From: Antedon mediterranea
Lineage: Eukaryota > Echinodermata > Crinoidea > Comatulida > Antedonidae
Length of the DNA stretch: 64,000 nucleotides
Direction: 5' to 3'
NCBI RefSeq assembly: GCF_964355755.1
Contig: NC_092670.1
Span: 35,575,795 to 35,639,794, forward strand
A program made the position numbers and the translations under genes. The first letter of the stretch is position 1; each line of letters opens with the position of its first letter. This document shows positions 1,843 to 51,537 of this stretch, piece by piece. The notes below the pieces were generated by a model, which was not told the origin of the DNA, searched no databases, and saw only the letters and a program-made list of their open reading frames with translations.

Positions 1843-1851
1843 TAAACCTAG
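1843..1851. repeat. Target-site duplication, left copy
   Basis: TAAACCTAG lies immediately outside the left terminus and is repeated exactly, in the same orientation, at 17557-17565. A 9-bp direct duplication flanking perfect terminal inverted repeats is the expected footprint of a cut-and-paste insertion. Confidence 0.85.
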
Positions 1852-2040
1852 ACCGGCGTGAAGTTAGTTACTTATTCCTTATTCGATATTCAATTTTTTT
1901 TGTGAAGTTGGATCCTTATTCGACATTCACATTCACATGTATGGGGCGCAATAATGTAATATTTTAATTAAATAATTTTATACTTACGGCTTAGATTAAT
2001 TAGGGCTATGATTTATAGGGCTATAACTTCGTTATAAACG
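1852..2040 (+). repeat. Left unique terminal inverted-repeat domain
   Basis: This non-repetitive outer domain carries the phrases CTTATTCGATATTCAA and ATGTATGGGGCGCAAT. It is mirrored at 17368-17556 with a few substitutions and a small indel near the ATATTGCGCC phrase. The satellite monomers start immediately inside it. Confidence 0.85.
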
Positions 2041-3799
2041 GCATGGTTCGGGATGACGATACATGGGTTCGGGCTAGTAGGGTCCAGTCGTTTCAGAAAA
2101 ATACCACTTGCCCCGGTCCATGTCGTCTAGCTGCCATTTTACGCCATTTTAAAACCTTACTACAATTTAACGTTTTTTAAAATAAAAAATGCAATATAAC
2201 CGGATGATTTATAGGGCTATAATTACGTGATAAACGGCATGGACCGGGATGACAATACATGGGTTGGGGCAAGTAGGGTCCAGTCAATTCAGAAAAATAC
2301 CACTTGCCCCGGTCCATGCCGTCTAGCTGCCATTTTACGCCATTTTGAAAAGTTACCACAATTTAAGTTTTTTTTTTATAAAAAATGCAATATAACCGTA
2401 TGATTTATAGGGCTATAATTACGTTATAAACGGCATGGACCGGGATGACAATACATGGGTTGGGGCAAGTAGGGTCCAGTCAATTCAGAAAAATACCACT
2501 TGCCCCGGTCCATGCCGTCTAGCTGCCATTTTACGCCATTTTGAAAAGTTACCACAATTTAAGTTTTTTTTTTATAAAAAATGCAATATAACCGTATGAT
2601 TTATAGGGCTATAATTACGTTATAAACGGCATGGACCGGGATGACGATACATGGGTTGGGGCTAGTAGGGTCCTGTCGTTTCAGAAAAATACCACTTGCC
2701 TCGGTCCATGCCGTCTAGCTGTCATTTTACGCCATTTTAAAACGTTACTGCAATTTAACGTTTTTTTAAATAAAAAATGCAATATAACAGGATGATATAT
2801 AGGGCTATAATTACGTTATAAACGGCATGGACCGGAATGACGATACATGGGTTGGGGCAAGTAGGGTCCAGTCATTTCAGAAAAATACCACTTGCCCCGA
2901 TCCATGCCGTCTAGCTGTCATTTTACGCCATTTTAAAACGTTACCGTTACTACAATTTAATTTTTTAAAATAAAAAATGCAATATAACCGAATGATTTAA
3001 AGGGCTATAATTACGTTATAAACGGCATGGACCGGAATGACGATACATGGGTTGGGGCTAGTAGGGTCCAGTAGTTTAAGAAAAATACCACTTGACCCGG
3101 TCCATGCCGTCTAGCTGCCATTTCACGCCATTTTAAAACCTTACTACAATTTCACGTTTTAAAAAAAATTGCAATATAACCGGATGAAATATAGGGCTAT
3201 AATTACGTTATAAACGGCATGGACCGCGATGACGATACATGGGTTGGGGCGAGTAGGGTCCAGTTATTTCAGAAAAATACCTCTTACCCTGGTCCATGCC
3301 GTCTAGCTGTCATTTTACGCCATTTTAAAACGTTACTACAATTTAAGGTTTTCATAAAAAATGCAATGTAAACGTATGATTTATAGGGCTATAATTACGT
3401 TATAAACGGCATGGACCGGGATGACGATACATGGGTTGGGGCTAGTATGGTCCAGTCAATTCAGAAAAATACCACTTGCCCCGGTCCATGCCGTCTAGCT
3501 ATCATGTTACGCCATTTTAAAACGTTACTACAATTTAACGTTTTTTTTATAAAAAATGCAATATAACCGAATGATTTATAGGGCTATAATTACGTTATAA
3601 ACGGCATGGACCGGGATGACGATACATGGGTTGGGGCAAGTAGGGTCCAGTCAATTCAGAAAAATACCACTTGCCCCGGTCCATGCCGTCTAGCTATCAT
3701 TTTACGCCATTTTAAAACGTTACTACAATTTAACGTTTTTTTTAATAAAAAATGCAATATAACCGAATGATTTATAGGGCTATAATTACGTTATAAACG
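2041..3799 (+). repeat. Left arm: ~9 tandem 195-bp monomers
   Basis: Each monomer contains ACGGCATGGACCGG followed about 80 bp later by its complement CCGGTCCATGCCGT, then an AT-rich linker with GCCATTTTA and ATGCAATATAACCG. Every unit can therefore fold into a hairpin by itself. Orientation flips at about 3799, where the sequence jumps from the TTATAAACG phrase to AAGTGGTATTTTTC. Confidence 0.9.
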
Positions 3800-6700
3800 T
3801 AAGTGGTATTTTTCCGAAATGACTAGACCCTACTCGTCCCAACCCATGCATCGTCATCCCGGTCCATGCCGTTTATAACGTAATTATAGCCCTATAAATC
3901 ATACGTTTATAGTGCATTTTTTAATTTTAAAAACCTTAAATTGTAGTAACCTTTTAAAATGGCGTAAAATGACAGCTAGACGGCATGGACCGGGGCAAGT
4001 GGTATTTTTCTGAATTGACTGGACCCTACTTGCCCCAACCCATGTATCGTCATCCCGGTCCATGCCGTTTATAACGTAATTATAGCCCTATAAATCATTC
4101 GGTTATATTGCATTTTAAAAAAAAATAAACGTTAAATTGTAGTAACGTTTTAAAATGGCGTAAAATGACAGCTAGACGGCATGGACCGGGGCAAGTGGTA
4201 TTTTTCTGACACGACTGGACCATACTAGCCCCAACACATGTATTGTCATCCCGGTCCATGCCGTTTATAACGTAATTATAGCCCTATAAATCATTCGGTT
4301 ATATTGCATTTTTTATTTAAAAAAACTTAAATTGTAGTAACGTTTTAAAATGTCGTAAAATGAAAGCTAGACGGCATGGGCCGGGGCAAGTGGCATTTTT
4401 CCGAAATGACTAGACCCTACTCGTCCCAACCCATGCATCGTCATCCCGGTCCATGCCGTTTATAACGTAATTATAGCCCTATAAATCATACGTTTATAGT
4501 GCATTTTTTATTTTTAAAAACGTTAAATTGTAGTAACGTTTTAAAATGGGGTAAAATGACAGCTAGACGGCATGGACCGGGGCAAGTGGTACTTTTCTAT
4601 AATGACTGGATCCTACTCGCACCAACCCATGTATCTTCATACCGGTCCATGCCGTTTATAACGTAATTATAGCCCTATATATCATCCGGTTATATTGCAT
4701 TTTTTATAAAAAAGTTAAATTGTAGTAACGTTTTAAAATGGCGTGAAATGGCCGCTAGACGGCATGGACCGGGTCAAGTGGTATTTTTCTGAAACGACTG
4801 GACCCTACTAGCCCCAACCCATGTATCGTCATCCCGGTCCATGCCGTTTATAACGTAATTATAGCCCTATAAACCATTCGGTTATATTGCATTTTTTATT
4901 AAAAAAAACGTTAAATTGTAGTAACGTTTTAAAATGTCGTAAAATGATAGCTAGACGGCATGGACCGGGGCAAGTGGTATTTTTCTGAATTGACTGGACC
5001 CTACTTGCCCCAACCCATGTATCGTCATCCCGGTCCATGCCGTTTATAACGTAATTATAACCCTATAAATCCTATGTTTACATTGCATTTTTTATGAAAA
5101 CCTTAAATTTTAGTAACGTTTTAAAATGGCGTAAAATGACAGCTAGCTAGACGGCATGGACCGGAGTAAGAGGTATTTTTCTTAAATGACTGAACCCTAC
5201 TCGCCCCAACCCATGTATCGTCATCCCGGTCCATGCCGTTTATAACGTAATTATAGCCCTATATTTCATCAGGTTATATTGCATTTTTTATAAAAACGTT
5301 AAATTGTAGTAAGGTTTTAAAATGGCGTGAAATGGCAGCTAGACGGCATGGACCGGGTCAAGTGGTATTTTTCTTAAACCCTACTAGCCCCAACCCATGT
5401 ATCGTCATTCCGGTCCATGCCGTTTATAACGTAATTATAGCCCTATAAATCATTCGGTTATATTGCATTTTGTATTTTAAAAAATTAAATTGTAGTAACG
5501 GTAACGTTTTAAAATGGCTTAAAATGACAGCTAGACGGCATGGACCGGGGCAAGTGGTATTTTTCTGAAATGACTGGACCCTACTAGCCCCAACCCATGT
5601 ATCGTCATTCCGGTCCATGCCGTTTATAACGTAATTATAGCCCTATATATCATCCTTTTATATTGCATTTTTTATTTAAAAAAACCTTAAATTGTAGTAA
5701 CGTTTTAAAATGGCGTAAAATGATAGCTAGACGGCATGGACCGGGGCAAGTGGTATTTTTCTGAATTGACTGGACCCTACTAGCCCCAACCCATGTATCG
5801 TCATCCCGGTCCATGCCGTTTATAACGTAATTATAGCCCTAATCATTCGGTTATATTGCATTTTTATTTAAAAAAAACGTTAGATTGTAGTAACGTTTTA
5901 AAATGGCGTAAAATGATAGCTAGACGGCATGGACCGGGGCAAGTGGTATTTTTCTGAATTGACTGGACCCTACTTGCCCCAACCCATGTATCGTCATCCC
6001 GGTCCATGCCGTTTATAACGTAATTATAGCCCTATACATCATACGTTTACATTGCATTTTTTATGAAAACCTTAAATTGTAGTCACGTTTTAAAATGGCG
6101 TAAAATGACAGCTAGACGGCATGGACCGGGGCAAGTGGTATTTTTCCGAAATGACTAGACCCTACTCGTCCCAACCCATGCATCGTCATCCCGGTCCATG
6201 CCGTTTATAACGTAATTATAGCCCTATAAATCATTCGGTTATATTGCATTTTAAAAAAAAATAAACGTTAAATTGTAGTAACGTTTTAAAATGGCGTAAA
6301 ATGACAGCTAGACGGCATGGACCGGGGCAAGTGGTATTTTTCTGACACGACTGGACCATACTAGCCCCAACACATGTATTGTCATCCCGGTCCATGCCGT
6401 TTATAACGTAATTATAGCCCTATAAATCATTCGGTTATATTGCATTTTTTATTTAAAAAAACTTAAATTGTAGTAACGTTTTAAAATGTCGTAAAATGAA
6501 AGCTAGACGGCATGGGCCGGGGCAAGTGGCATTTTTCCGAAATGACTAGACCCTACTCGTCCCAACCCATGCATCGTCATCCCGGTCCATGCCGTTTATA
6601 ACGTAATTATAGCCCTATAAATCATACGTTTATAGTGCATTTTTTATTTTTAAAAACGTTAAATTGTAGTAACGTTTTAAAATGGGGTAAAATGACAGCT

Positions 6701-9700
6701 AGACGGCATGGACCGGGGCAAGTGGTACTTTTCTATAATGACTGGATCCTACTCGCACCAACCCATGTATCTTCATACCGGTCCATGCCGTTTATAACGT
6801 AATTATAGCCCTATATATCATCCGGTTATATTGCATTTTTTATAAAAAAGTTAAATTGTAGTAACGTTTTAAAATGGCGTGAAATGGCCGCTAGACGGCA
6901 TGGACCGGGTCAAGTGGTATTTTTCTGAAACGACTGGACCCTACTAGCCCCAACCCATGTATCGTCATCCCGGTCCATGCCGTTTATAACGTAATTATAG
7001 CCCTATAAACCATTCGGTTATATTGCATTTTTTATTAAAAAAAACGTTAAATTGTAGTAACGTTTTAAAATGTCGTAAAATGATAGCTAGACGGCATGGA
7101 CCGGGGCAAGTGGTATTTTTCTGAATTGACTGGACCCTACTTGCCCCAACCCATGTATCGTCATCCCGGTCCATGCCGTTTATAACGTAATTATAACCCT
7201 ATAAATCCTATGTTTACATTGCATTTTTTATGAAAACCTTAAATTTTAGTAACGTTTTAAAATGGCGTAAAATGACAGCTAGCTAGACGGCATGGACCGG
7301 AGTAAGAGGTATTTTTCTTAAATGACTGAACCCTACTCGCCCCAACCCATGTATCGTCATCCCGGTCCATGCCGTTTATAACGTAATTATAGCCCTATAT
7401 TTCATCAGGTTATATTGCATTTTTTATAAAAACGTTAAATTGTAGTAAGGTTTTAAAATGGCGTGAAATGGCAGCTAGACGGCATGGACCGGGTCAAGTG
7501 GTATTTTTCTTAAACCCTACTAGCCCCAACCCATGTATCGTCATTCCGGTCCATGCCGTTTATAACGTAATTATAGCCCTATAAATCATTCGGTTATATT
7601 GCATTTTGTATTTTAAAAAATTAAATTGTAGTAACGGTAACGTTTTAAAATGGCTTAAAATGACAGCTAGACGGCATGGACCGGGGCAAGTGGTATTTTT
7701 CTGAAATGACTGGACCCTACTAGCCCCAACCCATGTATCGTCATTCCGGTCCATGCCGTTTATAACGTAATTATAGCCCTATATATCATCCTTTTATATT
7801 GCATTTTTTATTTAAAAAAACCTTAAATTGTAGTAACGTTTTAAAATGGCGTAAAATGATAGCTAGACGGCATGGACCGGGGCAAGTGGTATTTTTCTGA
7901 ATTGACTGGACCCTACTAGCCCCAACCCATGTATCGTCATCCCGGTCCATGCCGTTTATAACGTAATTATAGCCCTAATCATTCGGTTATATTGCATTTT
8001 TATTTAAAAAAAACGTTAGATTGTAGTAACGTTTTAAAATGGCGTAAAATGATAGCTAGACGGCATGGACCGGGGCAAGTGGTATTTTTCTGAATTGACT
8101 GGACCCTACTTGCCCCAACCCATGTATCGTCATCCCGGTCCATGCCGTTTATAACGTAATTATAGCCCTATACATCATACGTTTACATTGCATTTTTTAT
8201 GAAAACCTTAAATTGTAGTCACGTTTTAAAATGGCGTAAAATGACAGCTAGACGGCATGGACCGGGGCAAGTGGTATTTTTCCGAAATGACTAGACCCTA
8301 CTCGTCCCAACCCATGCATCGTCATCCCGGTCCATGCCGTTTATAACGTAATTATAGCCCTATAAATCATACTTTATAGTGCATTTTTTAATTTTAAAAA
8401 CCTTAAATTGTAGTAACCTTTTAAAATGGCGTAAAATGACAGCTAGACGGCATGGACCGGGGCAAGTGGTATTTTTCTGACACGACTGGACCATACTAGC
8501 CCCAACACATGTATTGTCATCCCGGTCCATGCCGTTTATAACGTAATTATAGCCCTATAAATCATTCGGTTATATTGCATTTTTTATTTAAAAAAACTTA
8601 AATTGTAGTAACGTTTTAAAATGTCGTAAAATGAAAGCTAGACGGCATGGGCCGGGGCAAGTGGCATTTTTCCGAAATGACTAGACCCTACTCGTCCCAA
8701 CCCATGCATCGTCATCCCGGTCCATGCCGTTTATAACGTAATTATAGCCCTATAAATCATACGTTTATAGTGCATTTTTTATTTTTAAAAACGTTAAATT
8801 GTAGTAACGTTTTAAAATGGGGTAAAATGACAGCTAGACGGCATGGACCGGGGCAAGTGGTACTTTTCTTTAATGACTGGATCCTACTCGCACCAACCCA
8901 TGTATCTTCATACCGGTCCATGCCGTTTATAACGTAATTATAGCCCTATATATCATCCGGTTATATTGCATTTTTTATAAAAAAGTTAAATTGTAGTAAC
9001 GTTTTAAAATGGCGTGAAATGGCCGCTAGACGGCATGGACCGGGTCAAGTGGTATTTTTCTGAAACGACTGGACCCTACTAGCCCCAACCCATGTATCGT
9101 CATCCCGGTCCAAACCGTTTATAACGTAATTATAGCCCTATACATCATACGTTTACATTGCATTTTTTATGAAAACCTTAAATTGTAGTCACGTTTTAAA
9201 ATGGCGTAAAATGACAGCTAGACGGCATGGACCGGGGTAAGAGGTATTTTTTTTAAATGACTGGTGGACCCTACTCGCCCCAACCCATGTATCGTCATCC
9301 CGGTCCATGCCGTTTATAACGTAATTATAGCCCTATTATATCATGCGTTTATATTGCATTTTTTTTTTTTAAAACGTTAAATTGTAGTAACGTTTTAAAA
9401 TGGAGTAAAATGACAGCTAGACGGCATGGACCGGGGCAAGTGGTATTTTTCCAAAATGACTAGACCCTACTCGTCCCAACCCATGCATCGTCATCCCGGT
9501 CCATGCTGTTTGTAACGTAATTATAGCCCTATAAATCATACGTTTATAGTGCATTTTTTATTTTTAAAAACCTTAAATTGTAGTAACCTTTTAAAATGGC
9601 GTAAAATGACAGCTAGACGGCATGGACCGGGGCAAGTGGTACTTTTCTATAATGACTGGACCCTACTCGCACCAACCCATGTATCGTCATCCCGGTCCAT

Positions 9701-12700
9701 GCCGTTTATAACGTAATTATAGCCCTATATATCATCCGGTTATATTGAATTTTTTATAAAAAAAAGTTAAATTGTAGTAACGTTTTAAAATGGGGTGAAA
9801 TGGCCGCTAGACGGCATGGACCGGGTCAAGTGGTATTTTTCTGAAACGACTGGACCCTACTAGCCCCAACCCATGTATCGTCATTCCGGTCCATGCCGTT
9901 TATAACGTAATTATAGCCCTATAAACCATTCGGTTATATTGCATTTTTTATTTAAAAAAAACGTTAAATTGTAGTAACGTTTTAAAATGGCGTAAAATGA
10001 TAGCTAGACGGCATGGACCGGGGCAAGTGGTATTTTTCTGAATTGACTGGACCCTACTTGCCCCAACCCATGTATCGTCATCCCGGTCCATGCCGTTTAT
10101 AACGTAATTATAGCCCTATAAATCATATGTTTACATTGCATTTTTTATGAAAACCTTAAATTGTAGTAACGTTTTAAAATGGCGTTTAATGACAGCTAGA
10201 CTGCATGGACCGGGGTAAGAGGTATTTTTCTTAAATGACTGGACCCTACTCGCCCCAACCCATGTATCGTCATCCCTGTCCATGCCGTTTATAACGTAAT
10301 TATAGCCCTATATTTCATCAGGTTATATTGCATTTTTTATAAAAACGTTAAATTGTAGTAAGGTTTTAAAATGGCGTGAAATGGCAGCTAGACGGCATGG
10401 ACCGGGTCAAGTGGTATTTTTCTGAAACTACTGGACACTACTAGCCCCAACCCATGTATCGTCATCCCGGTCCATGCCGTTTATAACGTAATTATAGCCC
10501 TATAAATCATTCGGTTATATTGCATTTTGTATTTTAAAAAATTAAATTGTAGTAACAGTAACGTTTTAAAATGGCTTAAAATGACAGCTAGACGGCATGG
10601 ATCGGGGCAAGTGGTATTTTTCTGAAATGAATTGACCCTACTCGCCCCAACCCATGTATCGTTATCCCGGTCCATGCCGTTTATAACGTAATTATAGCCC
10701 TATATATCATCCTGTTATATTGCATTTTTTATTTAAAAAAACGTTAAATTGTAGTAACATTTTGAAATGGCGTAAAATGATAGCTAGACGGCATGGACCG
10801 GAGCAAGTGGTATTTTTCTGAATTGACTGGACCCTACTTGCCCCAACCGATGTATCGTCATCCCGGTCCATGCCGTTTATAACGTAATTATAGCCCTATA
10901 AACCATTCGGTTATATTGCATTTTTTATTTAAAAAAACGTTAAATTGTAGTAACGTTTTAAAATGGAGTAAAATGACAGCTAGACGGCATGGACCGGGGC
11001 AAGTGGTATTTTTCCAAAATGACTAGACCCTACTCGTCCCAACCCATGCATCGTCATCCCGGTCCATGCCGTTTATAACGCAATTATAGCCCTATAAATC
11101 ATACGTTTATAGTGCATTTTTTAATTTTAAAAACCTTAAATTGTAGTAACCTTTTAAAATGGCGTAAAATGACAGCTAGACGGCATGGACCGGGGCAAGT
11201 GGTACTTTTCTATAATGACTGGACCCTACTCGCACCAACCCATGTATCGTCATCCCGGTCCATGCCGTTTATAACGTAATTATAGCCTTATATATCATCC
11301 GGTTATATTGCATTTTTTATAAAAAAAGTTAAATTGTAGTAACGTTTTAAAATGGGGTGAAATGGCCGCTAGACGGCATGGACCGGGTCAAGTGGTATTT
11401 TTCTGAAACGACTGGACACTACTAGCCCCAACCCATGTATCGTCATTCCGGTCCATGCCGTTTATAACGTAATTATAGCCCTATAAACCATTCGGTTATA
11501 TTGCATTTTTTATTTTAAAAAAACGTTAAATTGTAGTAACGTTTTAAAATGGCGTAAAATGATAGCTAGACGGCATGGACCGGGGCAAGTGGTATTTTTC
11601 TGAATTGACTGGACCCTACTTGCCCCAACCCATGTATCGTCATCCCGGTCCATGCCGTTTATAACGTAATTATAGCCCTATAAATCATGTTTACATTGCA
11701 TTTTTTATGAAAACCTTAAATTGTAGTAACGTTTTAAAATGGCGTATAATGACAGCTAGACGGCATGAACCGGGGTAAGAGGTATTTTTCTTAAATGACT
11801 GGACCCTACTCGCCCCAACCCATGTATCGTCATCCCGGTCTATGCCGTTTATAATGTAATTATAGCCCTATATTTCATCAGGTTATATTGCATTTTTTAT
11901 AAAAAAGTTAAATTGTAGTAAGGTTTTAAAATGGCGTGAAATGGCAGCTAGACGGCATGGACCGGGTCAAGTGGTATTTTTCTGAAAGTACTGGACCATA
12001 CTAGCCCCAACCCATGTATCGTCATCCCGGTCTATGCCGTTTATAACGTATTTATAGCCCTATAAACCATTCGGTTATATTGCATTTTTTATTTAAAAAA
12101 ACGTTAAATTGTAGTAACGTTTTAAAATGGCGTAAAATGATAGCTAGACGGCATGAACCGGGGCAAGTGGTATTTTTCTGAATTGACTGGACCCTACTTG
12201 CCCCAACCCATGTATCGTCATCCCGGTCCATGCCGTTTATAACGTAATTATAGCCCTATAAATCATATGTTTACATTGCATTTTTTATGAAAACCTTAAA
12301 TTGTAGTAACGTTTTAAAATGGCGTATAATGACAGCTAGACGGTATGGACCGGGGAAAGAGGTATTTTTCTTAAATGACTGGACCCTACTCGCCCCAACC
12401 CATGTATCGTCATCCCGGTCCATGCCGTTTATAACGTAATTATAGCCTTATATTTCCTCAGGTTATATTGCATTTTTTATAAAAACGTTAAATTGTAGTA
12501 AGGTTTTAAAATGGCGTGAAATGGCAGCTAGACGGCATGGACCGGGTCAAGTGGTATTTTACTGAAACTACTGGACCCTACTAGCCCCAACCCATGTATC
12601 GTCATCCCGGTCCATGCCGTTTATAACGTAATTATAGCCCTATAAATCATTCGGTTATATTGCATTTTGTATTTAAAAAAACGTTAAATTGTAGTAACAT

Positions 12701-15700
12701 TTTGAAATGGCGTAAAATGACAGCTAGACGGCATGGACCGGGGCAAGTGGAATTTTTTTGAAATGAATGGACCCTACTCGCCCCAACCCATGTATCGTTA
12801 TCCCGGTCCATGCCGTTTATAACGTACTTATAGCCTTATATATCATCCGGTTATATTGCATTTTTTATTTAAAAAAACGTTAAATTGTAGTAACATTTTG
12901 AAATGGCGTAAAATGATAGCTAGACGGCATGGACCGGGGCAAGTGGTATTTTTCTGAATTGACTGGACCCTACTTGCCCCAACCGATGTATCGTCATCCC
13001 GGTCCATGCCCTTTATAACGTAATTATAGTCCTATAAATCATATGTTTACATTGCATTTTTTATGAAAACCTTAAATTGTAGTAACGTTTTAAAATGGCG
13101 TATAATGACAGCTAGACGGCTTGGACCGGGGTAAGAGGTATTTTTCTTAAATGACTGGACCCTACTCGCCCCAACCCATGTATCGTAATCCCGGTCCATG
13201 CCGTTTATAACGTAATTATAGCCCTATATTTCATCAGGTTATATTGCATTTTTTATAAAAACGTTAAATTGTAGTAAGGTTTTAAAATGGCGTGAAATGG
13301 CAGCTAGACGGCATGGACCGGGTCAAGTGGTATTTTTCTGAAACTACTGGACCCTACTAGCCCCAACCCATGTATCGTCATCCCGGTCCATGCCGTTTAT
13401 AACGTAATTATAGCCCTATAAATCATTCGGTTATATTGCATTTTGTATTTAAAAAAATTAAATTGTAGTAACAGTAACGTTTTAAAATGGCTTAAAATGA
13501 CAGCTAGACGGCATGGACCGGGGCAAGTGGTATTTTTCTGAATTGACTGGACCCTACTCGCCCCAACCCATGTATCGTTATCCCGGTCCATGCTGTTTAT
13601 CACGTAATTATAGCCCTATATATCATCCTGTTATATTGCATTTTTTATTTAAAAAAACGTTAAATTGTAGTAACGTTTTAAAATGGCTTAAAATGACAGC
13701 TAGACGGCATGGACCGGGGCAAGTGGTATTTTTCTGAAATGAATGGACCCTACTCGCCCCAACCCATGTATCGTTATCCCGGTCCATGCTGTTTATCACG
13801 TAATTATAGCCCTATATATCATCCTGTTATATTGCATTTTTTATTTAAAAAAACGTTAAATTGTAGTAACATTTTGAAATGGCGTAAAATGATAGCTAGA
13901 CGGCATGGACCGGGGCAAGTGGTATTTTTCTGAATTGACTGGACGCTACTTGCCCCAACCGATGTATCGTCATCCCGGTCCATGCCGTTTATAACGTAAT
14001 TATAGCCCTATAAACCATTCGGTTATATTGCATTTTTTATTTAAAAAAACGTTAAATTGTAGTAACGTTTTAAAATGGCGTAAAATGATAGCTAGACGGC
14101 ATGGACCGGGGCAAGTGGTATTTTTCTGAATTGACTGGACCCTACTTGCCCCAACCCGTGTATCGTCATCCCGGTCCATGCCGTTTATAACGTAATTATA
14201 GCCCTATAAATCATATGTTTACATTGCATTTTTTATGAAAACCTTAAATTGTAGTAACGTTTTAAAATGGCGTATAATGACAGCTAGACGGCATGGACCG
14301 GGGCAAGTGGTATTTTTCTGAAATGAATGGACCCTACTCGCCCCAACCCATGTATCGTTATCCCGGTCTATGCCGTTTATAACGTAATTATAGCCCTATA
14401 AACCATTCGGTTATATTGCATTTTTTATTTAAAAAAACGTTAAATTGTAGTAAAGTTTTAAAATGGCGTGAAATGGCAGCTAGACGGCATGGACCGGGTC
14501 AAGTGGTATTTTTCTGAAACTACTGGACCCTACTAGCCCCAACCCATGTATCGTCATCCCGGTCCATGCCGTTTATAACGTAATTATAGCCCTATAAAAC
14601 ATTCGGTTATATTGCATTTTTTATAAAAAAAACCGTTAAATTGTATAATAATATAATAATAATAATAAGATTTTTATAGCGCACATACCACTCCAGAGTG
14701 CTCAAGGCGCATAACGTTTTAAAATGGCGTAAAATGATAGCTAGACGGCATGGACCGGGGCAAGTGGTATTTTTCTGAATTGACTGGACCCTACTCGTCC
14801 CAACCCATGTATCGTCATCCCGGTCCATGCCGTTTATAACGTAATTACAGCCCTATATATCATCCGGTTATATTGCATTTTTTATAAAAACGTTAAATTG
14901 TAGTAAGGTTTTAAAATGGCGTGAAATGGCAGCTAGACGGCATGGACCGGGTCAAGTGGTATTTTTCTGAAACTACTGGACCCTACTAGCCCCAACCCAT
15001 GTATCGTCATCCCGGTCCATGCCGTTTATAACGTAATTATAGCCCTATAAATCATTCGGTTATATTGCATTTTTTATTAAAAAAAACCCGTTAAATTGTA
15101 GTAACGTTTTAAAATGGCGTAAAATGATAGCTAGACGGCATGGACCGGGGCAAGTGGTATTTTTCTGAATTGACTGGACCCTACTTGCCCCAACCCATGT
15201 ATCGTCATCCCGGTCCATGCCGTTTATAACGTAATTATAGCCCTATAAATCATACGTTTACATTGCATTTTTTATGAAAACCTTAAATTGTAGTAACGTT
15301 TTAAAATGGCGTAAAATGACAGCTAGACGGCATGGACCGGGGTAAGAGGTATTTTTCTGAAATAACTGGACCCTACTCGCCCCAACCCATGTATCGTCAT
15401 CCCGGTCCATGCCGTTTATAACGTAATTATAGCCCTATATTTCATCCGGTTATATTGCAATTTTTATAAAAACGTGAAATTGTAGTAAGGTTTTAAAATG
15501 GCGTGAAATGGCAGCTAGACGGCATGGACCGGGTCAAGTGGTATTTTTTTTAAACTACTGGACCCTACTAGCCCCAACCCATGTATCGTCATCCCGGTCC
15601 ATGCCGTTTATAACGTAATTATAGCCCTATAAATCATTCGGTTATATTGCATTTTTTATTTTTAAAAATTAAATTGTAGGACCGGTAACGTTTTAAAATG

Positions 15701-17367
15701 GCGTAAAATGACAGCTAGACGGCATGGACCGGGGCAAGTGGTATTTTTCTGAAATGACTGGACCCTACTCGCCCCAACCCATGTATCGTCATCCTGGTCC
15801 ATGCCGTTTATCACGTAATTATAGCCCTATAAATCATCCGGTTATATTGAATTTTTTATTTAAAAAAACGTTAAATTGTAGTAACGTTTTAAAATGGCGT
15901 AAAATGACAGCTAGACGGCATGGACCGAGGCAAGTGGTATTTTTCTGAAACGACAGGACCCTACTAGCCCCAACCCATGTATCATCATCCCGGTCCATGC
16001 CGTTTATAACGTAATTATAGCCCTATAAATCATACGGTTATATTGCATTTTTTATTTAAAAAAACTTAAATTGTGGTAACGTTTTAAAATGGCGTAAAAT
16101 GATAGCTAGACGGCATGGACCGGGGCAAGTGGTATTTTTCTGAATTGACTGGACCCTACTTGCCCCAACCCATGTATCGTCATCCCGGTCCATGCCGTTT
16201 ATAACGTAATTATAGACCTATAAATCATACGTTTACATTGCATTTTTTATGAAAACCTTAAATTGTAGTAACGTTTTAAAATGGCGTAAAATGACAGCTT
16301 GACGGCATGGACCGGGGTAAGAGGTATTTTTCTGAAATAGCTGGACCCTACTCGCCCCAACCCATGTATCGTCATCCCGGTCCATGCCGTTTATAACGTA
16401 ATTATAGCCCTATATTTCATCCGGTTATATTGCAATTTTTATAAAAACGTGAAATTGTAGTAAGGTTTTAAAATGGCGTGAAATGGCAGCTAGACGGCAT
16501 GGACCGGGTCAAGTGGTATTTTTTTTAAACTACTGGACCCTACTAGCCCCAACCCATGTATCGTCATCCCGGTCCATGCCGTTTATAACGTATTTATAGC
16601 CCTATAAATCATTCGGTTATATTGCATTTTTTATTTTTAAAAATTAAATTGTAGGACCGGTAACGTTTTAAAATGGCGTAAAATGACAGCTAGACGGCAT
16701 GGACCGGGGCAAGTGGTATTTTTCTGAATTGACTGGACCCTACTCGCCCCAACCCATGTATCGTCATCCCGGTCCATGCCGTTTATCACGTAATTATAGC
16801 CCTATAAATCATCCGGTTATATTGAATTTTTTATTTAAAAAAACGTTAAATTGTAGTAACGTTTTAAAATGGCGTAAAATGACAGCTAGACGGCATGGAC
16901 CGAGGCAAGTGGTATTTTTCTGAAACGACAGGACCCTACTAGCCCCAACCCATGTATCGTCATCCCGGTCCATGCCGTTTATAACGTAATTATAGCCCTA
17001 TAAATCATACGGTTATATTGCATTTTTTATAAAAAAAAACTTAAATTGTGGTAACGTTTTAAAATGGCGTAAAATGGCAGCTAGACGGCATGGACCGGGG
17101 CAAGTGGTATTTTTCTGAAATGACTAGATCCTACTCGCCCCAATCCATGTATCGTCATCCCGGTCCATGCCGTTTATCACGTAATTATAGCCCTATAAAT
17201 CATCCGGTTATATTGCATTTTTTATTTTAAAAAACGTTAAATTGTAGTAAGGTTTTAAAATGGCGTAAAATGACAGCTAGACGGCAAGGACCGGGGCAAG
17301 TGGTATTTTTCTGAAACGACTGGACCCTACTAGCCCGAACCCATGTATCGTCATCCCGGTCCATGCC
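3800..17367 (-). repeat. Right arm: ~70 inverted monomers with higher-order repeats
   Basis: These are the same 195-bp monomers in reverse orientation. A higher-order unit of 2136 bp (11 monomers) is repeated almost without change: about 4060-6195, 6196-8330, and a partial copy to about 9113. A second higher-order unit of about 975 bp (5 monomers) repeats at about 15.2-17.0 kb. Short open frames recur with the monomers only because the monomer happens to be open; they are not genes. Confidence 0.85.
14647..14713 (-). mobile_element. Retroposon 3'-tail fragment inserted in one monomer
   Basis: A monomer is interrupted between AAATTGTA and TAACGTTTTAAAATGG by an (AAT)n run followed by TTTTTATAGCGCACAT and GAGTGCTCAAGGCGC. 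Read on the minus strand this is a GCGC-rich end with a (TTATT)n tail, resembling the 3' end of the LINE at 40600-40618. It is a single unshared insertion. Confidence 0.55.
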
Positions 17368-17556
17368 GTTTATAACGAAGTTATAGCCCTATAAATCATA
17401 GCCCTAGTTAATCTAAGCCGTAAGTATAAAATCATTTAATTAAAATATTACACATATTGCGCCCCATACATGTGAATGTGAATGTCGAATAAGGATCCAA
17501 CTTCACAAAAAAAATTGAATATCGAATAAGGAATAAGTAACCAACTTCACGCCGGT
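17368..17556 (-). repeat. Right unique terminal inverted-repeat domain
   Basis: This is the inverted copy of 1852-2040. It ends AACTTCACGCCGGT directly before the TAAACCTAG duplication. Confidence 0.85.
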
Positions 17557-17565
17557 TAAACCTAG
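17557..17565. repeat. Target-site duplication, right copy
   Basis: TAAACCTAG, identical to 1843-1851. Confidence 0.85.
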
Positions 17566-25795: not shown

Positions 25796-26139
25796 TGGTA
25801 TGCCAGCGTACGTAACGCGACCAAAGAATACGGTATACCAGCTGTGTACGTAATGCGATCAAAGACTACGGTATGCCAACAAACGCAACACGACCAAAGA
25901 ATACGGTATACTAGCGTACTTAACGCGACCAAATAATATGGTATACCAACGTACGTAACGCGACCAAAGACTACGGCATGCCAGCGTACGTAACGCGACC
26001 AAAGAATACGCTATGCCAGCGTACGTAACGCGACCAAAGAATAGGGTCATGCCAGCGTACTTAAGTTAACGTGACCAAAGAATATGGTATGTCAGCGTAC
26101 GTAACGCGACCAAAGAATACGCTATGCCAGCGTACGTAA
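25796..26139. repeat. Minisatellite, ~35-bp unit
   Basis: About ten imperfect copies of a unit containing CCAGCGTACGTAACGCGACC followed by AAAGAATACGGTATG. Internal variation includes shortened units and AACGTGACC variants. It directly abuts the left end of the 6.8-kb inverted-repeat element. The minus-strand open frame through it is a by-product of the repeat. Confidence 0.85.
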
Positions 26140-26289
26140 TAGACTAGTCCAGATTTGAGAAAAATGAAATGCTGTAGGCATTTTGTGTTAAAAGCAGATA
26201 AACATGTGTTTTAGGGTAATTTTGGGGTGCTGAATTCAAATTTGCTGTTTACCCGGCTCAATTTTTAGATCTTCACCCTTAAAATGTGA

Positions 26290-26700
26290 AAAACAAAATG
26301 GCCACCATTTCAGACTTATTTTGGCTTATAACTTGACTTTTAAGTGACGTAGCAAGTTAAAAATGGTGTCTATACATATGTTTGTGATAGTGAAGATTCC
26401 AACTATATTGTTATTAAAGTTGAAAATATTCTATTTCAGCCGCCATGTTGAAATCCAAGATGGCCGCCATTTTAAACGTATTTTGGCTTATAACTTGACT
26501 TTTAATTAACATAGCAAGTTAAAAATAGTTTCTATACCTATGTTTGTGATACTGAGGATTCCAAATATATTGTTGTTGCAGTTGTAAATATTCTATTTCA
26601 ACCTCCATGTTGGAATTCAAGATGGCCGCCATCATTTTAAACGTATTTTGGCTTATAACTTGACTTTTGATTAACATAGCAAGTTAAAAATGGTTTCTAC
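26290..26700 (+). repeat. Left-arm tandem repeats of the 6.8-kb element
   Basis: Three units with the phrases TTTTGGCTTATAACTTGACTTTT, AGCAAGTTAAAAATGGT and a CAAGATGGCCGCCAT box, spaced about 170 bp apart. Confidence 0.8.
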
Positions 26701-27299
26701 CTATAGTCCAGTAACAGTATGGTTGAACCTAGAACAAATTGCAACATAATTTGTTTTTGTTTTGTCTGGTTGATATGGTCCAAATTAACATCATATCCAA
26801 AGTTTACCAAAATCGGACATCGTGAAGTGGGTTCATTAGCATAAATTAAAAATGGCCGAACGGTTGGTTTTACTTATAGACCACCTACTGTAAGTGAATT
26901 ACTATTAATTATTATTAATCAGATGTCTTGTTAATTTTGGACTGAACCAAAGATGCATGTTTCGAATTCATTCATAATTCATATCTTTGTTTCTTTGCAA
27001 GTACAGATCGTTTCTCATTCGAAATGCCATTGAAGATGTTGCCATGCTCCCCAGTGTTTTCTTTAACTACAGATTTTCCAATATATTGCTTCTTTTGTCT
27101 TAAAATATTTTTTTAATAATGGCAAAATAATAGTAGGCCCCTAATAGATTTAATGCTCCATCTGCATTCAAAGTTTCGATTCCATTTCCTGAAATTTTTT
27201 GCCAAGTAGTTAAGTTAAATACTGCTTGTTGTAGATATTTAAATACTGTAATTAAGTACCAATTATCAATTTATTTACCATTTCAAATTCATAAAGATT

Positions 27300-28880
27300 T
27301 ATAACAAATGCTGGTGTGGATGACATAAGAACAAAGCTTGTTTACCGGTCACCGGTAGTGATGGCAAGTTAGAAAATTACCCAAACCCTTTGAATATGCA
27401 GTATCTTTAACTGATGGTTCTTCATCCTTGTTGGCACAATATAATGTCCTTTATGCTCGATGAATCTTGGAAACAGCATTATAATATAAGCCAAAAAATT
27501 TGTTGACTTGGTCACCAAACAGGTAAAATTCTGGCAATGAAATAGCAACTTTGATTGCAGATGAAGATGCTCACTTGTTATACCAAAAACTGCAATATGA
27601 CATTATTTATTTCATGTGTCATTTCAATTTTGGATGTTTCCATACACGTGTGATCCAATAGACTGGGGTAATAATGTTTCACAACATTAGGCGCTATATA
27701 AATCCACGATATTATTGTATGAAAACTATTAATTTGATATCTAATTATTATACTATAAATTAAATTTATATTTATGTGTGTAGGCCTACATATTACCACT
27801 AATTGCAAAGCATATATAGCTTAATGTTTATTGCGTAATAATTGTTTAATGGGCTAGGCCGGGTAGCGGCGGCCGGGTATGTGCAGGTGTTCACAGGTCC
27901 CCAGGGCACAGAGAACTACATGCACAACAATCCTAGGATATGCGCAAAAGCAAGGCAAGTCAGAAATTTATGCGAGGCATCGTTTTACCATCATCAAAAA
28001 ATGCGAGGCATCATTTTATTATTTCCCAAAATTTAGGATCGATTATTATTCTTTGAAAACAGAACAGTATCAGCAATAACATATTACAGCATTTTTATTG
28101 ACAAATTAACAAATATATTGAGATTAAACGTGTTTTTCACCAATAAATGCATGAGAAATTGACGCATTCCACTTTGTTTTAGTCCTCTATTATCATTTTG
28201 GCCGTGAAGCTAGTTAATTCTATTTCCTTATTCTGAATTGAAGGCATTATATATAATACTGTAGATGAAAAAACCTCAAAACGAAACCTCTACTTCCTCT
28301 GGTATCCAGTATCATTTACTACTATGGCTAATGCTATCATCTTACACTATTGATAATTTTATAAATTACAGTACCTTTTTTTTGTAAGCATTTTGTACTG
28401 TACTTTTATAAGTGTTACCCCAAATGTCACAACAATCATTAATATATGGTAATATCAATGCATAAATAAAATAAATTATACACTACTTTTCATCAGTTTT
28501 CTCAATTTATATATTATTATTATTATACTGATTTCTTTATCAATTATTGTTTGTATACATTTAACATGTTTGTTTTTTTACCAATTTTACAATCTATTTC
28601 TATTCCAAGAAATGTTTTGATATAAATACGTTGTTGTTGTATTGAATTGATTCTGTGAAGTCTTTTTGACCAACTCTTTCATTATCATTATGAACAAACA
28701 ATTTGAACATTGTAGTCAACTTATACCAGCCACGATATGACTTGAATGAAAAAAACAATCGTTACATAAAAATAAACAACATAGCATGATGAGTGTATAT
28801 ACGAATCTATTTCGATACGCTAGGCCTATTTTAAAAATATAAATAATTGATTATTAGGCCTATAATATTGCATAATAGCA
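27300..28880. other. Non-coding interior of the 6.8-kb element
   Basis: No gene was recognised. Two ATGCGAGGCATC phrases at about 27968-28012 are mirrored by TGCCTCGCA phrases at about 28889-28970 and about 31343, suggesting a nested inverted structure. Confidence 0.4.
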
Positions 28881-28887
28881 CGTTAAG

Positions 28888-28966
28888 AAATGCCTCGCAC
28901 CTTTTTGAAATTGTAAACTATATGCCTCGCACCTTTTTGAAATTGTAAACTATATGCCTCGCATGC
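28888..28966. repeat. Short tandem repeat, ~33 bp unit
   Basis: Two adjacent copies of TGCCTCGCACCTTTTTGAAA plus TTGTAAACTATA, followed by a partial third copy. Confidence 0.8.
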
Positions 28967-29032
28967 CTCACACTTATATTTGGTGTGTCTCGACGTTGCC
29001 TCACACAATCGAATTGGAACAATACAATGAAA

Positions 29033-29104
29033 ACTCCAGTGGTCTAATGGTTAGGAGATCTGCATATCAAGCAGAAGGTTCCGGGTTTGAATCTCGGAGA
29101 GGGC
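29033..29104 (+). pseudogene. tRNA-like sequence (degenerate, SINE-head type)
   Basis: The A-box region TGGTCTAATGGTTAGGA, an anticodon arm TCTGC-loop-GCAGA with loop ATATCAA, and a T arm with GGGTTTGAATC are all visible, followed by a TTTTT run. The 7-bp acceptor stem does not pair, and the anticodon would be ATC, which is not normally used. It is most likely a tRNA pseudogene or tRNA-derived SINE head. Confidence 0.5.
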
Positions 29105-29174
29105 TTTTTCTCATTCTCACAGGTTTCGTCATTTTTATTTTCTCTAATTAATTAAATTTCATTATATCGGGAGG

Positions 29175-29399
<225 letters not shown>

Positions 29400-29400
<1 letters not shown>

Positions 29401-30225
29401 TGGTATACGTTGTGTTGTTTTTGTATTTAACATTACGGAATGAACTATTGTGTGCGTTATATCTGCATTTAAATGTGTTTTCGGTTAGTCCGACATATGT
29501 TTCAACTTTATCATCATCATTTGTTGTTACTGTAGCCTGATAAACAACACCACTGGTTAGGCATTTCCCATCTAATGGGCATTCATTTCGACAGTTGCAT
29601 TGCTTGATGTTATCACAGGGCATATCATTACGTAATACATTTTTGTTGTGGGCCGATATTACAGACCCTATATTAGGCATACAACTATAGCTGATTTTAA
29701 TGGTGTTTCTATTAAATATTTTTCTGGTGGTATTGGTCGGGTTGTACTTCAGATTGTGGTCGTATCCACTTTCATACAAGGCTTCTTGGTACGGTTTCTT
29801 TGATTCATTGAAAACAGTTTCATTCGAAGAAATGTTTGATAATCTTTTGTTTATGCCTTCAGGGATGTTCTTAATTATTGATGCTGGATGATTACTTTTG
29901 CAATGAACATAGCGTGGTTTGTTGTTTTCCTTTAAATAAGGCTTATAGCTTCCATCGTTGAGATTAAGCGTTACATCTAGGTAGTTTATAATTTTCTTAT
30001 TCGCTTCGATCGTTATCTTTAGATTATGTTCTTTGAATGTGCTGCAGAGATCTTTTTTTATTTTTTCAATAACATGAGGAGTTTCATTAAATGCCGCGAG
30101 TCCGTCATCCCTGTACAATCCTATGTTATTACCGTACTTGGGCTCCAGTTTGGCTAGCAGAAACAGACCAATTAACTCGCATGTTTCAGCACCGTCGTAG
30201 CTACGAGCTATATAGGTCTTATATA
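29400..30225 (-). pseudogene. Penelope-like element remnant: reverse transcriptase C-terminus plus GIY-YIG nuclease
   Basis: The minus-strand frame encodes the end of a reverse transcriptase with the catalytic motif [12 protein letters not shown] linker follows with [19 protein letters not shown] and a Cys-rich [13 protein letters not shown]. It ends with a GIY-YIG endonuclease start, VVYQATVT...[19 protein letters not shown] followed by GIY-YIG defines Penelope-like elements, which often insert next to TA-rich DNA. The N-terminal RT part is absent. The passage between NPTNTT and RKIFNRN appears shortened relative to related elements as I remember them, suggesting an internal deletion. The frame fades into TA microsatellite at both ends. 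Non-functional. Confidence 0.8.
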
Positions 30226-30266
30226 TATATATATAAATCAATGATGTTGCGTAGCACTGTGTAAAT

Positions 30267-30337
30267 TATATATAAATCATACTGTAAATTATAGAAACAG
30301 TGCTCATATGAGCACTGTTTCTATAATTTACAGTATG

Positions 30338-30348
<11 letters not shown>
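30267..30348. repeat. 82-bp perfect palindrome
   Basis: Bases 30267-30307 are the exact reverse complement of 30308-30348, with no spacer. The centre is GTGCTCAT|ATGAGCAC. It lies between the Penelope remnant and the LINE 3' end. Confidence 0.95.
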
Positions 30349-30364
<16 letters not shown>

Positions 30365-30368
<4 letters not shown>

Positions 30369-31092
30369 CTCTTTTGTGGCGCAAACACTACTATAAATGG
30401 TCCAATGATGTGTCCGGTCTTTGTACTTTATGTGGGAATGGTGAAATTGAAGACATTAAACATTTTTTATTAAACTGTAAAGCATTTGATAATATTAGAA
30501 TGAAAGAATTATCCAATTTACAAAATAATCTTGTACTCTGTAATGATTATGACACATGGAATCGTTACACAACAGCAAGTGCTGATGATAAATTACAGTA
30601 TATTTTAGGTGGAGATTCTATCGCGATTTGTAAAGAATCTGAGACCTTTTTTGATTTGTTTTGTAAACAATACACAAGAGCTGCATGGGAGAAACGGTCA
30701 GAACTTAAATCTCCCAATATATAGATTGTTTTTCTTTTGTATTGTTGCTTTTATATATGATTTGTAAATATTATACACCTGTGATAACAACTATAGGTCC
30801 TCAGTACCTGATGTTGAAACACAATGGTTTGTATTGTAAACTCTTTACTATATTTTATGTTTATTTTTATATACCTTTTTATCAACTCAAACCTATGATA
30901 CTGTCGGACAATTTAATACAGTACCTATATTACCATGTTGGTAATGATTTATCTTTTATATTTTTACAAATAGTTTAAGAACCTGTATCCGTCATATAAT
31001 GTATTGTTTTGATGTATTATGTTAAATTGGATGCACCACTTCTGTGTGTGCCACCGATGCAAAGGTGTCATTTCCTAATAAATTATTATTAT
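30365..31092 (+). pseudogene. LINE 3' end (RT C-terminal zinc-knuckle fragment and tail)
   Basis: The plus-strand frame to 30724 contains KWSNDVSGLCTLCGNGEIED followed by IKHFLLNCKAF, the C-x2-C-x-H-x-C knuckle near the end of many non-LTR reverse transcriptases. After the stop there is about 340 nt of 3' UTR, then an AATAAATTATTATTATT tail. 5'-truncated and inactive. Confidence 0.7.
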
Positions 31093-31374
31093 TACTACTT
31101 TTATTCACATTCCTATTATCTCATGTCATTAAATCATATTATTTAACACATTTTTGTTAATTCCAAATGTCATCAGTAACATTTTTACATTTATGAATTC
31201 CGTATTACCTCCTTTTTTCATTAATGTTCTTATCTTTTTCTAAACACTTGACAATGATCATCATTATCATCTATCTCGTTTTAAAATATTTTACACATAA
31301 AGAACAATCCCTTTTTGAGTTTTTCATTTTCATTTGTTTGTTTGCCTCGCACTTTGTTACTACCCTGTGTGTGT

Positions 31375-32800
31375 GTGTGTGTTTAAAATAGGCGCCATCT
31401 TTGATTTCAACATGGCGGCTGTTTACAACTTTAATAACAATATATTTGGAATCCTCAGTATCACAAACATAGGTACTGTATAGACATCATTTCTAACCTA
31501 CTATGTTACTTAATGTTAAGTTATAAGCCAAAATACGTTTTAAATGGCGACCATCTTGAATTTCAACATGGCGACTGAAATAGAATATTTACAACTTTAA
31601 TAACAATATATTTGGAATCCTCAGTATCACAAACATAGGTACTGTATAGACATCATTTCTAACCTACTATGTCACTTATATGTTAAGTTATAAGCCAAAA
31701 TACGTTTTAAATGGCGACCATCTTGAATTCCAACATGGCGACTGAAATAGAATATTTACAACTTTAATAACAATATATTTGGAATCCTCAGTATCACAAA
31801 CATAGGTACTGTATAGACATCATTTCTAACCTACTATGTCACTTATATGTTAAGTTATAAGCCAAAATACGTTTTAAATGGCGACCATCTTGAATTCCAA
31901 CATGTCGACTGAAATAGAATATTTACAACTTTAATAACAATATATTTGGAATCCTCAGTATCACAAACATACTGGTACTGGTACTGGTTCAAATAACCGT
32001 CTCACAGAGACATCTGGTAGCCATTGACTTGAAGTTGGCATTTGGATGTGTTACTTTTAAATGTAGGCTTACAGTATGAGAGTGACTACTACCAAATTAC
32101 ACAGTCACAAAACAACTTATAAAACAGTTCATATATACAGTTAAAACATTGCTGGGAATTATAAATTTCTGTTGAAGCAGGCTCTAATGAAGTTGCATAG
32201 GTACTGTATAGACATCATTTCTAACCTACTATGTCACTTATATGTTAAGTTATAAGCCAAAATACGTTTTAAATGGCGACCATCTTGAATTTCAACATGG
32301 CGACTGAAATAGAATATTTACAACTTTAATAACAATATATTTGGAATCCTCAGTATCACAAACATAGGTATAGAAACTATTTTTAACTTGCTATGTTAAT
32401 TAAAAGTCAAGTTATAAGCCAAAATACGTTTAAAATGGCGGCCATAAGTAAGTAATATTTATTGCTTTCCAAATACAGTACAAATAAATAAAACAGAATA
32501 ATGTAAATGAAATAAAAAGAGAAACATAAAAATATAAAAATACAAGACTAGACAAGAAAATAAGCATGGAAAGCAGGGGATGGCCCTTTAAGCCCAGAGG
32601 CTTGTTTCCAAAGGGGTCCCATCTTGGATTTCAACATGGCGGCTGAAATAGAATATTTGCAACTTTAATAACAATATAGTTGGAATCTTCACTATCACAA
32701 ACATAGGTATAGACACCATTTTTAACTTGCTACGTCACTTAAAAGTCAAGTTATAAGCCAAAATAAGTCTGAAATGGCGGCCATTTTGTTTTTCACATTT
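31375..32800 (-). repeat. Right-arm tandem repeats of the 6.8-kb element
   Basis: About seven inverted units, each with ATGGCGACCATCTTGAATT, CAACATGGCG and CTCAGTATCACAAACATAGG phrases, at a spacing of about 150 bp. Units are interrupted by unrelated insertions at about 31970-32195 and 32450-32620. The latter carries CCCTTTAAGCCCAGAGGC, a retroposon-like end. Confidence 0.8.
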
Positions 32801-33099
32801 TAAGGGTGAAGATCTAAAAATTGAGCCAGGTAAACAGCAAATTTGAATTCAGCACCCCAAAATTACCCTAATAAAAAAAATGTATTCGCTTTTAACACGA
32901 AATGCCTACAGCATCTTATTAGAGTGGACATATGACTATCTGGACTAGTCTATAAAGCGAGCAATTAAACACATATCAACACAGATATATGCATTATGGT
33001 TTATCAGCAGAGGATTTAATCATTATTTCTAAATAATTCCTCCTTGTTAATCGGGTAACTAACTAAACTCAACAAAGGGGCACATCATCCCATCATAGA

Positions 33100-46872: not shown

Positions 46873-47250
46873 TCAGTTGCTGCTGCTTGTGTATTTTGTG
46901 ACCGCCTTCGTTCCTTCACTGACCGCATGCTTAGCAAGTTCTCCCGGCAAAAGTAGTCTCACTGCCGTCTGCACTTCTCGGCTACTTATGGTAGATTTCT
47001 TGTTGTACTGAGCCAATCTTGATCCTTCATTTGCAATACGTTGAAATATATCGTTCACGAAACTGTTCATGATTCCCATAGCTCGGCTTGAAATACCAGT
47101 GTCTGGGTGGACTTGCTTCAACACCTTGTAGATGTAGATATTGTAGCTCTCCTTTCGTTTACGTTTGTTTTTCCTGCTTGGATTCGACGAAACCGCCATC
47201 TTAGAACCAGATTTATTAGCAGCTTTTCCAATGTTACTCTTTTTCGGCAT
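46873..47250 (-). CDS. H2B: Histone H2B, gene 1
   Basis: Intronless, 125 aa, the usual H2B length. A Lys/Ser-rich N-tail precedes the histone fold with [56 protein letters not shown] and [20 protein letters not shown], then KYTSSSN. It packages DNA as a dimer with H2A. The start is the first ATG of the frame. Upstream on the minus strand are an octamer ATGCAAAT (47363-47370) and a CCAAT box (complement of ATTGG near 47400), both usual in H2B promoters. It is polyadenylated in type: AATAAA and no stem-loop. The body is nearly identical to gene 2 at 51163-51537; the N-tail and residues such as QRIANEGSR versus ERIANEASR differ. Confidence 0.95.
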
Positions 47251-47362
47251 TTTGGTAGATTCAGGTTATAACTCACAGAAGATACAAGAGAAGTGTTCAG
47301 TTCCAGTTCAGTGTTGGATTTGACTGAGAAGACGTCAAATCATTGTATTTATAGTGAAGCTC

Positions 47363-51162: not shown

Positions 51163-51537
51163 CTAGTTGCAACTTGTGTATTTTGTGACGGCCTTCGTTC
51201 CTTCACTGACCGCATGCTTAGCAAGTTCTCCCGGCAAAAGTAGTCTCACTGCCGTCTGCACCTCTCGGCTACTTATGGTAGATTTCTTGTTGTACTGAGC
51301 CAATCTGGATGCCTCATTTGCAATTCGTTCAAATATATCGTTCACGAAACTGTTCATGATTCCCATAGCGCGGCTTGAAATACCAGTGTCTGGGTGGACT
51401 TGCTTCAACACCTTGTAGATGTAGATATTGTAGCTCTCCTTTCGTTTACGTTTGTTTTTTCTGCTTGAACTACTGGCGACAGCCATTTTAGTGCCAGCTT
51501 TCTTTCCTGCTTTACCAGATGTTGGTTTTGGAGCCAT
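51163..51537 (-). CDS. H2B: Histone H2B, gene 2
   Basis: Intronless, 124 aa. The chosen start is the ATG at 51537 ([20 protein letters not shown]); the frame stays open 32 codons further upstream, but that extension has no H2B character and runs through the promoter. The histone fold is complete ([15 protein letters not shown] through [20 protein letters not shown]) and ends KYTSCN. It is divergently paired with H2A at 51919 across 381 bp. A TATA-like ATATAAAT and an octamer ATGCAAAT (51670-51677) lie upstream. Confidence 0.95.

Follow-up and report, generated by a model that had tools for sequence, protein, structure and literature searches.

Satellite arrays as the arms of a probable foldback transposon family in the Antedon mediterranea genome

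Satellite arrays are usually pictured growing in place. A locus on contig NC_092670.1 of Antedon mediterranea raises the question of whether a whole array can also travel, as a single transposon, to a new site. In the 64-kb window analysed here (the whole stretch of 64,000 nucleotides), two tandem arrays of ~195-bp monomers run in opposite directions between inverted ends, and an exact 9-bp duplication lies outside those ends. An earlier reading of the letters alone (the sequence-only reading) had proposed a foldback transposon, its arms made of satellite DNA and its target duplication 9 bp long, and had offered two histories for it: an array that moved whole, or one that grew after a small element landed. 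The foldback proposal holds up: the same genome has ten sister copies of the element and, besides these, a second family. We regard the window element as one copy of a non-autonomous class II transposon family of the FB foldback type, with a probability of roughly 0.86, and use the name F1 for this element and its relatives with the same ends.

The element proper is 15,705 bp long (1852-17556) and is flanked on both sides by exact copies of TAAACCTAG, at 1843-1851 and 17557-17565; the span of 1843-17565 given earlier takes in both duplications. Within the 64-kb window the 9-bp word starts only at 1843 and 17557, with no occurrence on the other strand, and its two copies lie directly outside ACCGGCGTG (from 1852) and CACGCCGGT (17548-17556). 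Between them the order is a 160-bp end, 9 full monomers, a single flip at 3799/3800, 69 full monomers and a second 160-bp end. The two ends are inverted repeats, and their alignment holds across the whole 420 bp compared and on into the arms. The unique end domain amounts to ~160 bp of inverted match, shorter than the ~190 bp first estimated. Its left copy (1852-2011, forward orientation) begins with ACCGGCGTGAAGTT and contains two motif copies of the GTGAAGTTGG...TTATTCGA type; the right copy (17396-17556, reverse orientation) ends in CACGCCGGT and is 97% identical to the left. The left arm (2012-3799, forward) consists of 9 full monomers of 192-200 bp and a 31-bp partial one, and the right arm (3800-17395, reverse) of a 101-bp partial and 69 full monomers in the opposite orientation, in agreement with the earlier description of terminal inverted repeats, a single flip near 3799 and about 9 against about 70 monomers. 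An Rfam search of the 64-kb window gave no matches.

The 78 full monomers of this element have a mean pairwise identity of 0.894. The earlier statement that the interior is made only of monomers is right about the ~195-bp unit and wrong in its "only": monomer R13 (14601-14861) is 261 bp long and includes ~66 bp of foreign sequence at approximately 14646-14711. Near the ends, homology between the two arms follows the order of the monomers: left monomer 0 is nearest to right monomer 0 (0.974), and left monomer 3 to right monomer 2 (0.985). Left monomer 6 is nearest to right monomer 10 (0.99) and then to right monomer 5 (0.979), and right monomers 10 and 5 are themselves 0.99 identical. Two adjacent blocks of 11 monomers in the right arm, 4097-6232 and 6233-8368 (2,136 bp each, reverse orientation), are identical monomer for monomer, and represent either a private tandem duplication or an assembly duplication.

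We searched the 354-Mb assembly (18 contigs), whose histone H2B is near to crinoid sequences, with the left 201 bp of the element and found at least 47 matches, with 40 of 293 candidates scored. These include at least 11 complete F1 copies, counting the one in the window, with sizes of 12.0-24.4 kb; this count leaves out twelve ends that are unpaired or truncated, and also a rearranged copy of ~3.9 kb at C10:11.435 Mb, whose flanks show no matching duplication. An exact 9-bp target duplication, expected by chance at ~4^-9 per element, flanks 10 of the 11 complete copies. Listing the terminal domains with their flanking 9 bp, as had been suggested, therefore found ends paired around exact duplications, and not ends that always lie inside larger arrays without them. 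The 24.4-kb copy, of which only the ends were fetched, has GGCCTACGT on both sides. The other ten, namely the window copy and nine further inverted pairs, were read whole and span 11,993-20,371 bp. Nine of these have the exact duplication; the exception is C11a, in which 7 of 9 positions agree and the left copy has seemingly been expanded by ATAT.

All ten copies read whole have the same plan (end, array, single flip, opposite array, end, with no unique middle), to which C7b adds two insertions, and in all ten the direction of the monomers relative to the nearest end is constant. The numbers of full monomers to the left and right of the flip are 9/69 in the window copy, 45/14 in C10a, 18/43 in C11a, 39/20 in C4a, 17/44 in C4b, 36/59 in C4c, 51/39 in C5a, 36/24 in C7a, 6/58 in C7b and 34/68 in C8a, that is, 6-69 per arm and 59-102 per copy. 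The 20 ends of these copies differ by 0-3.8%, the window copy's left end being the most diverged. The ten copies have no coding capacity, the longest stop-to-stop frame in each being 66-89 aa.

Assembly is difficult where repeats are inverted or in tandem, and it could itself have produced the exact 2,136-bp duplication; this raises the possibility that the structure as a whole is a false inverted duplication or a collapsed satellite. However, ten loci keep the plan with flips at different places and with six junction sequences, target duplications lie outside both ends, and the plan recurs in the sister family F2 described below, so that an artefact of this kind is barely credible. The variable position of the flip likewise argues against the possibility, named earlier as a refutation, that the inversion at 3799 is an assembly join.

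If a small element, consisting of the ends and a few monomers, had transposed and each long array had grown after landing, monomers should cluster by element. This is not what we see. Leaving out C7b, the mean monomer distance is 0.1036 within elements and 0.1054 between them, and the between-element share of monomer diversity is 1.7% (3.2% with C7b). These shares are small but exceed the maxima of 200 label shuffles (0.9% and 1.8%, respectively), as expected from local duplication. In six of the ten copies the nearest relative of a monomer is more often in another element, and in four (the window copy, C10a, C4b and C4c) it is more often in the same one. Nearest monomers in the same element number 38 of 77 in the window copy, 36 of 59 in C10a and 60 of 95 in C4c, so local amplification has been substantial in some copies.

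Long collinear runs of monomers connect elements on different chromosomes: 33 monomers at 97.8% identity between C5a and C8a, 27 at 98.0% between C4a and C5a, 24 at 98.3% between C4a and C8a, and 16 at 98.8% between C11a and C4c. The best of 190 shuffled comparisons scores 11.9, a value exceeded by 21 of the 190 arm pairs, eight of them at above 24 and 13 at 12.5-15.9; 19 of the 21 are between elements. The window copy has shorter runs in common with other copies (5-12 monomers), and 32% of its monomers are matched at ≥98.5% elsewhere.

The position of the flip tells a similar story. Five of the ten copies (C8a, C11a, C5a and, both in reversed orientation, C4c and C7a) have one flip junction between the same two monomer positions. 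Its 22-base word is exact in four of them and has two changes in C7a, and the base adjoining the junction is present in all five copies and in none of 729 full monomers. Given the same junction and a base absent from all full monomers, the common flip centre most simply arose once and was then carried to five sites. We looked for this junction in the window copy, where it is absent.

Together, the common junction and the collinear runs between chromosomes show that array content is inherited: it passes through transposition and is then altered by local block duplication. In C10a a private repeat of 21 consecutive monomers, shifted by 13, is 99.8% identical, and the window copy has its own exact and private duplication of 11 monomers. 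These private blocks, and the widely differing arm lengths, are what growth after landing would predict. It does not predict the weak clustering by element, the junction common to five copies or the runs between chromosomes, nor that the shortest of at least 11 complete F1 copies should be 11,993 bp (insertions not subtracted), even though one F2 pair is 1.4 kb apart. We therefore consider growth from a small element to be very unlikely as the origin of the arrays. Of the two histories proposed earlier, the evidence favours movement of whole arrays and keeps growth as a later private change; F1 arrays have both moved as units and changed afterwards.

A second end type, which begins AGCGCCGTGAAGTTGG and defines F2, came to light through three loci whose matches were diverged. 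With 40 of 60 candidates scored, a search for this end found at least ten inverted pairs, the two ends of a pair lying ~1.4 to 33.5 kb apart; exact 9-bp duplications flank nine of these ten, and in the tenth 7 of 9 positions match. Both of the F2 copies that were read whole follow the F1 plan, with oppositely oriented arms and a monomer direction fixed relative to the nearest end. The first, of 14.3 kb, has 8.6 and 63.6 monomers on either side of the flip; the second, of 7.8 kb, has 13.3 and 14.6, and its left end includes ~2.2 kb that is monomer-free and mostly nested-looking. The 189-bp F2 monomer aligns over its full length to the F1 monomer with a score of 114; the best of 200 shuffles scored 34. 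Because ends and monomers have diverged together in F1 and F2, the array is the transposon's own arm, an old and integral part of it.

This bears on the idea that two transposon ends picked up a free satellite array as their cargo. The monomers do have the length and tandem order of ordinary satellites. A genome search with the monomer gave matches that all lie in C7b (2 of 68 candidates scored). Cargo would not, however, be expected to hold a fixed direction relative to the nearest end in every copy read, to have a position-specific first monomer (0.966 identity across 16 arms, against 0.90-0.92 at the next eleven positions) or to recur as homologous monomers in the same plan in a sister family, and we judge capture to be highly improbable. 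The evidence from ten relatives of the window element and from a sister family is thus that a satellite array can move whole, as one transposon. In F1 and F2, tandem arrays are carried as units in ~20 insertion events, of which 19 show an exact 9-bp duplication; the two families offer a concrete route by which satellite arrays are brought to new sites, and a natural series in which array duplication, deletion and flipping can be measured after a known landing.

The TU elements of the sea urchin, another echinoderm, have long inverted arms, 8-bp duplications and short tandem repeats, whereas the duplication in F1 is 9 bp. TU elements are named among the foldbacks in the Tetris paper (PMC4079207). 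The foldback architecture of F1 is itself already known, from Drosophila FB and Tetris. FB of D. melanogaster has end sequences, opposite repeat blocks and 9-bp duplications, and its arms are unequal, one having two blocks and the other seven or eight (PMC7642927); the elements described there are 2.4-2.6 kb long, with ends of 467-479 bp, a middle region, and blocks that each comprise five repeats of 27-31 bp. The likeness to F1 (opposite repeat arms, unequal and variable in length, and 9-bp duplications) is structural only. F1 differs from what is described there in its 12-24 kb size, its ~195-bp monomers in numbers of 59-102 full units and its lack of a middle. The asymmetry of the arms, which the sequence-only reading had found unusual, is ordinary by comparison with both FB and the 6-69 monomers of F1 arms.

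Tetris of Drosophila virilis is described (PMC4079207) as having a unique end domain, ~220-bp tandem repeats, 8-10-bp duplications, arms of up to 1,735 bp and a middle domain, and it is linked to satellite arrays. By this description it resembles F1 in having unique ends followed by satellite-length tandem repeats. Its long arrays, of up to 66 copies, are presented there as an amplification that may have disrupted the element, whereas F1 elements are intact around arrays of 59-102 full monomers. In root-knot nematodes, the Mutator/Foldback element Tm1 (PMC3169594) has composite inverted ends of variable length with a mostly 14-bp motif in 1-9 units per end, 9-bp duplications and a candidate transposase copy; F1 has similar repeat-bearing inverted ends and 9-bp duplications, but we found no transposase copy for it. 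Helentrons of the Pacific oyster also spread satellite-like arrays, mostly of up to 5 and at most 29 monomers (PMC7492417), and make no target duplication; in F1 the spreading is done by a different kind of transposon. A Helitron or Helentron was rejected as the identity of the element, since no target duplication is expected of one and 19 of 21 F1 and F2 pairs have exact 9-bp ones. Extra copies of the end motif are reported for Galileo (PMC3688188). Such copies were sought inside the F1 monomer by aligning it with 150 bp of the end, and none was seen (score 25, shuffled mean 24.8, 144 of 300 shuffles as good). We found no giant satellite foldback in the open-access literature searched. What is apparently new in F1, measured against these accounts, is the size, the lack of a middle and the evidence that arrays of tens of monomers moved within intact, target-duplicated elements.

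A 29-base tip motif, GTGAAGTTGGTTACTTATTCC, occurs 61 times in the genome at up to 3 mismatches, against none for the reversed control, and these sites are the ends of F1 and F2 and of a few other types that have only the tip in common, including short inverted-end elements of ~0.7 and 1.6 kb. Short elements with this tip lie at C1:29.98 Mb and C8:22.62 Mb, and a group with it lies on C3 near 20.8 and 22.9 Mb. As the tip is common to F1, F2 and other end types, one common transposase acting on it is the simplest reading. An autonomous copy was sought at eight further tip-motif sites and not found there; these sites are other end types with the tip in common over ~27-41 bp, together with two F1 tips that are interrupted or cut. 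At one of the eight a frame looks gypsy-like by eye. The target duplications of MULEs are ~9-11 bp long, and the 9-bp duplication is consistent with a Mutator-like transposase, a class we infer tentatively from a feature that is not exclusive to it. Mutator-type (PF10551) matches were found at 36 places in the genome; at the four that were opened, no matching ends lay within 4-5 kb, the nearby hits being weak 12-base matches at 3 mismatches.

For F1 as an FB-type foldback family, we propose that a transposase acting in trans would recognise the conserved tip motif and move the whole 12-24 kb unit, and that copy number would rise by replication or gap repair. Arm length would then drift through unequal exchange or slippage during repair, and either microhomology or the 15-bp inverted repeat within the monomer could give rise to new flips. 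The junctions are compatible with such a step. Six junction types occur among the ten F1 copies, each with 0-4 bp of microhomology; that of the window copy has 2 bp (GT) and is private to it. In the consensus monomer, ACGGCATGGACCGGG and its complement form a 15-bp inverted repeat, the longest present, and the folding of a single monomer is more stable than that of shuffled sequences (z = -2.95, with 2 of 200 as good). The junction of the window copy falls at the edges of the two 15-bp arms and that of C4b adjoins them, so the monomer's own inverted repeat marks the switch in two of the six types, and the flips probably come from foldback switching or from inversion at short inverted repeats.

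A further reading, which we regard as possible though doubtful, makes mobile replicators of the satellite arrays themselves, as a foldback lineage whose arms must be long. In that case total length might be fixed by descent, or because the transposition complex requires many monomers, and the inverted arms, by exchanging with each other, would shift the flip at constant length. Were this so, satellite DNA would here be shaped by selection for transposition and not by drift in place alone. Five of the ten F1 copies read are 11,993-12,450 bp long, and a sixth is ~11.9 kb once its two insertions are subtracted; these near-12-kb copies divide their arms from 6:58 to 45:14.

Finally, 20 target sites (11 F1 and 9 F2, with the right-hand copy taken for C11a) show no strong consensus; A stands at position 6 in 10 of the 20, and G at position 9 in 10.

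The window carries open frames for two H2B histones, one H2A histone and one sialyltransferase (GT29), at 46873-47265, 51163-51678, 51892-52293 and 35051-35638, and the element at 1852-17556, which belongs to the foldback transposon family F1, is therefore set in a gene-bearing stretch. A further open frame of 286 aa at 43129-43989 contains a zinc finger of the FLYWCH type (Pfam PF04500, E 2.9e-06). Because FLYWCH fingers are present in some Mutator-type transposases, this frame may be a gene of the host or what is left of a transposon. On the minus strand, tandem 23-bp/68-bp repeats at 54383-55164 are open in several frames.

A second inverted-repeat pair with the outer motif ATAGACTAGTCCAGAT occupies 26139-32953, separate from the F1 element and unrelated to it. 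Its arms contain tandem repeats with a unit of 162-167 bp and enclose other, non-arm sequence; no clear target duplication was seen around the pair, which is perhaps another foldback-like element.

Elsewhere in the genome, the ends near position 100 in six loci (L069, L070, L071, L072, L075 and L076) are of other types, having only the 29-base outermost tip motif in common with F1 and its sister family F2. Inverted ends lie approximately 0.7 kb apart in L076 and 1.6 kb apart in L075, and these end types are possibly cross-mobilised relatives of F1 and F2.

In one F2 end domain, at locus L057, inverted GCGAGGCA/TGCCTCGC repeats bound a stretch of approximately 1.9 kb (positions ~290-2165), which is probably a separate element nested within the domain. 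Words related to these repeats also occur in the window at 28890-28963. At two loci, L073 and L074, the F1 tip is broken off after 30 bp by other sequence; the two loci share one left flank, and in L073 the F1 end picks up again approximately 970 bp further on. The F1-type ends at L038, L039 and L040 are older, and in them other sequence takes over before a single monomer is complete; of these three loci, the last two are 98-99% alike, lie 29 kb apart on chromosome C4 and are flanked by sequence that, judged by eye, is LINE-like.
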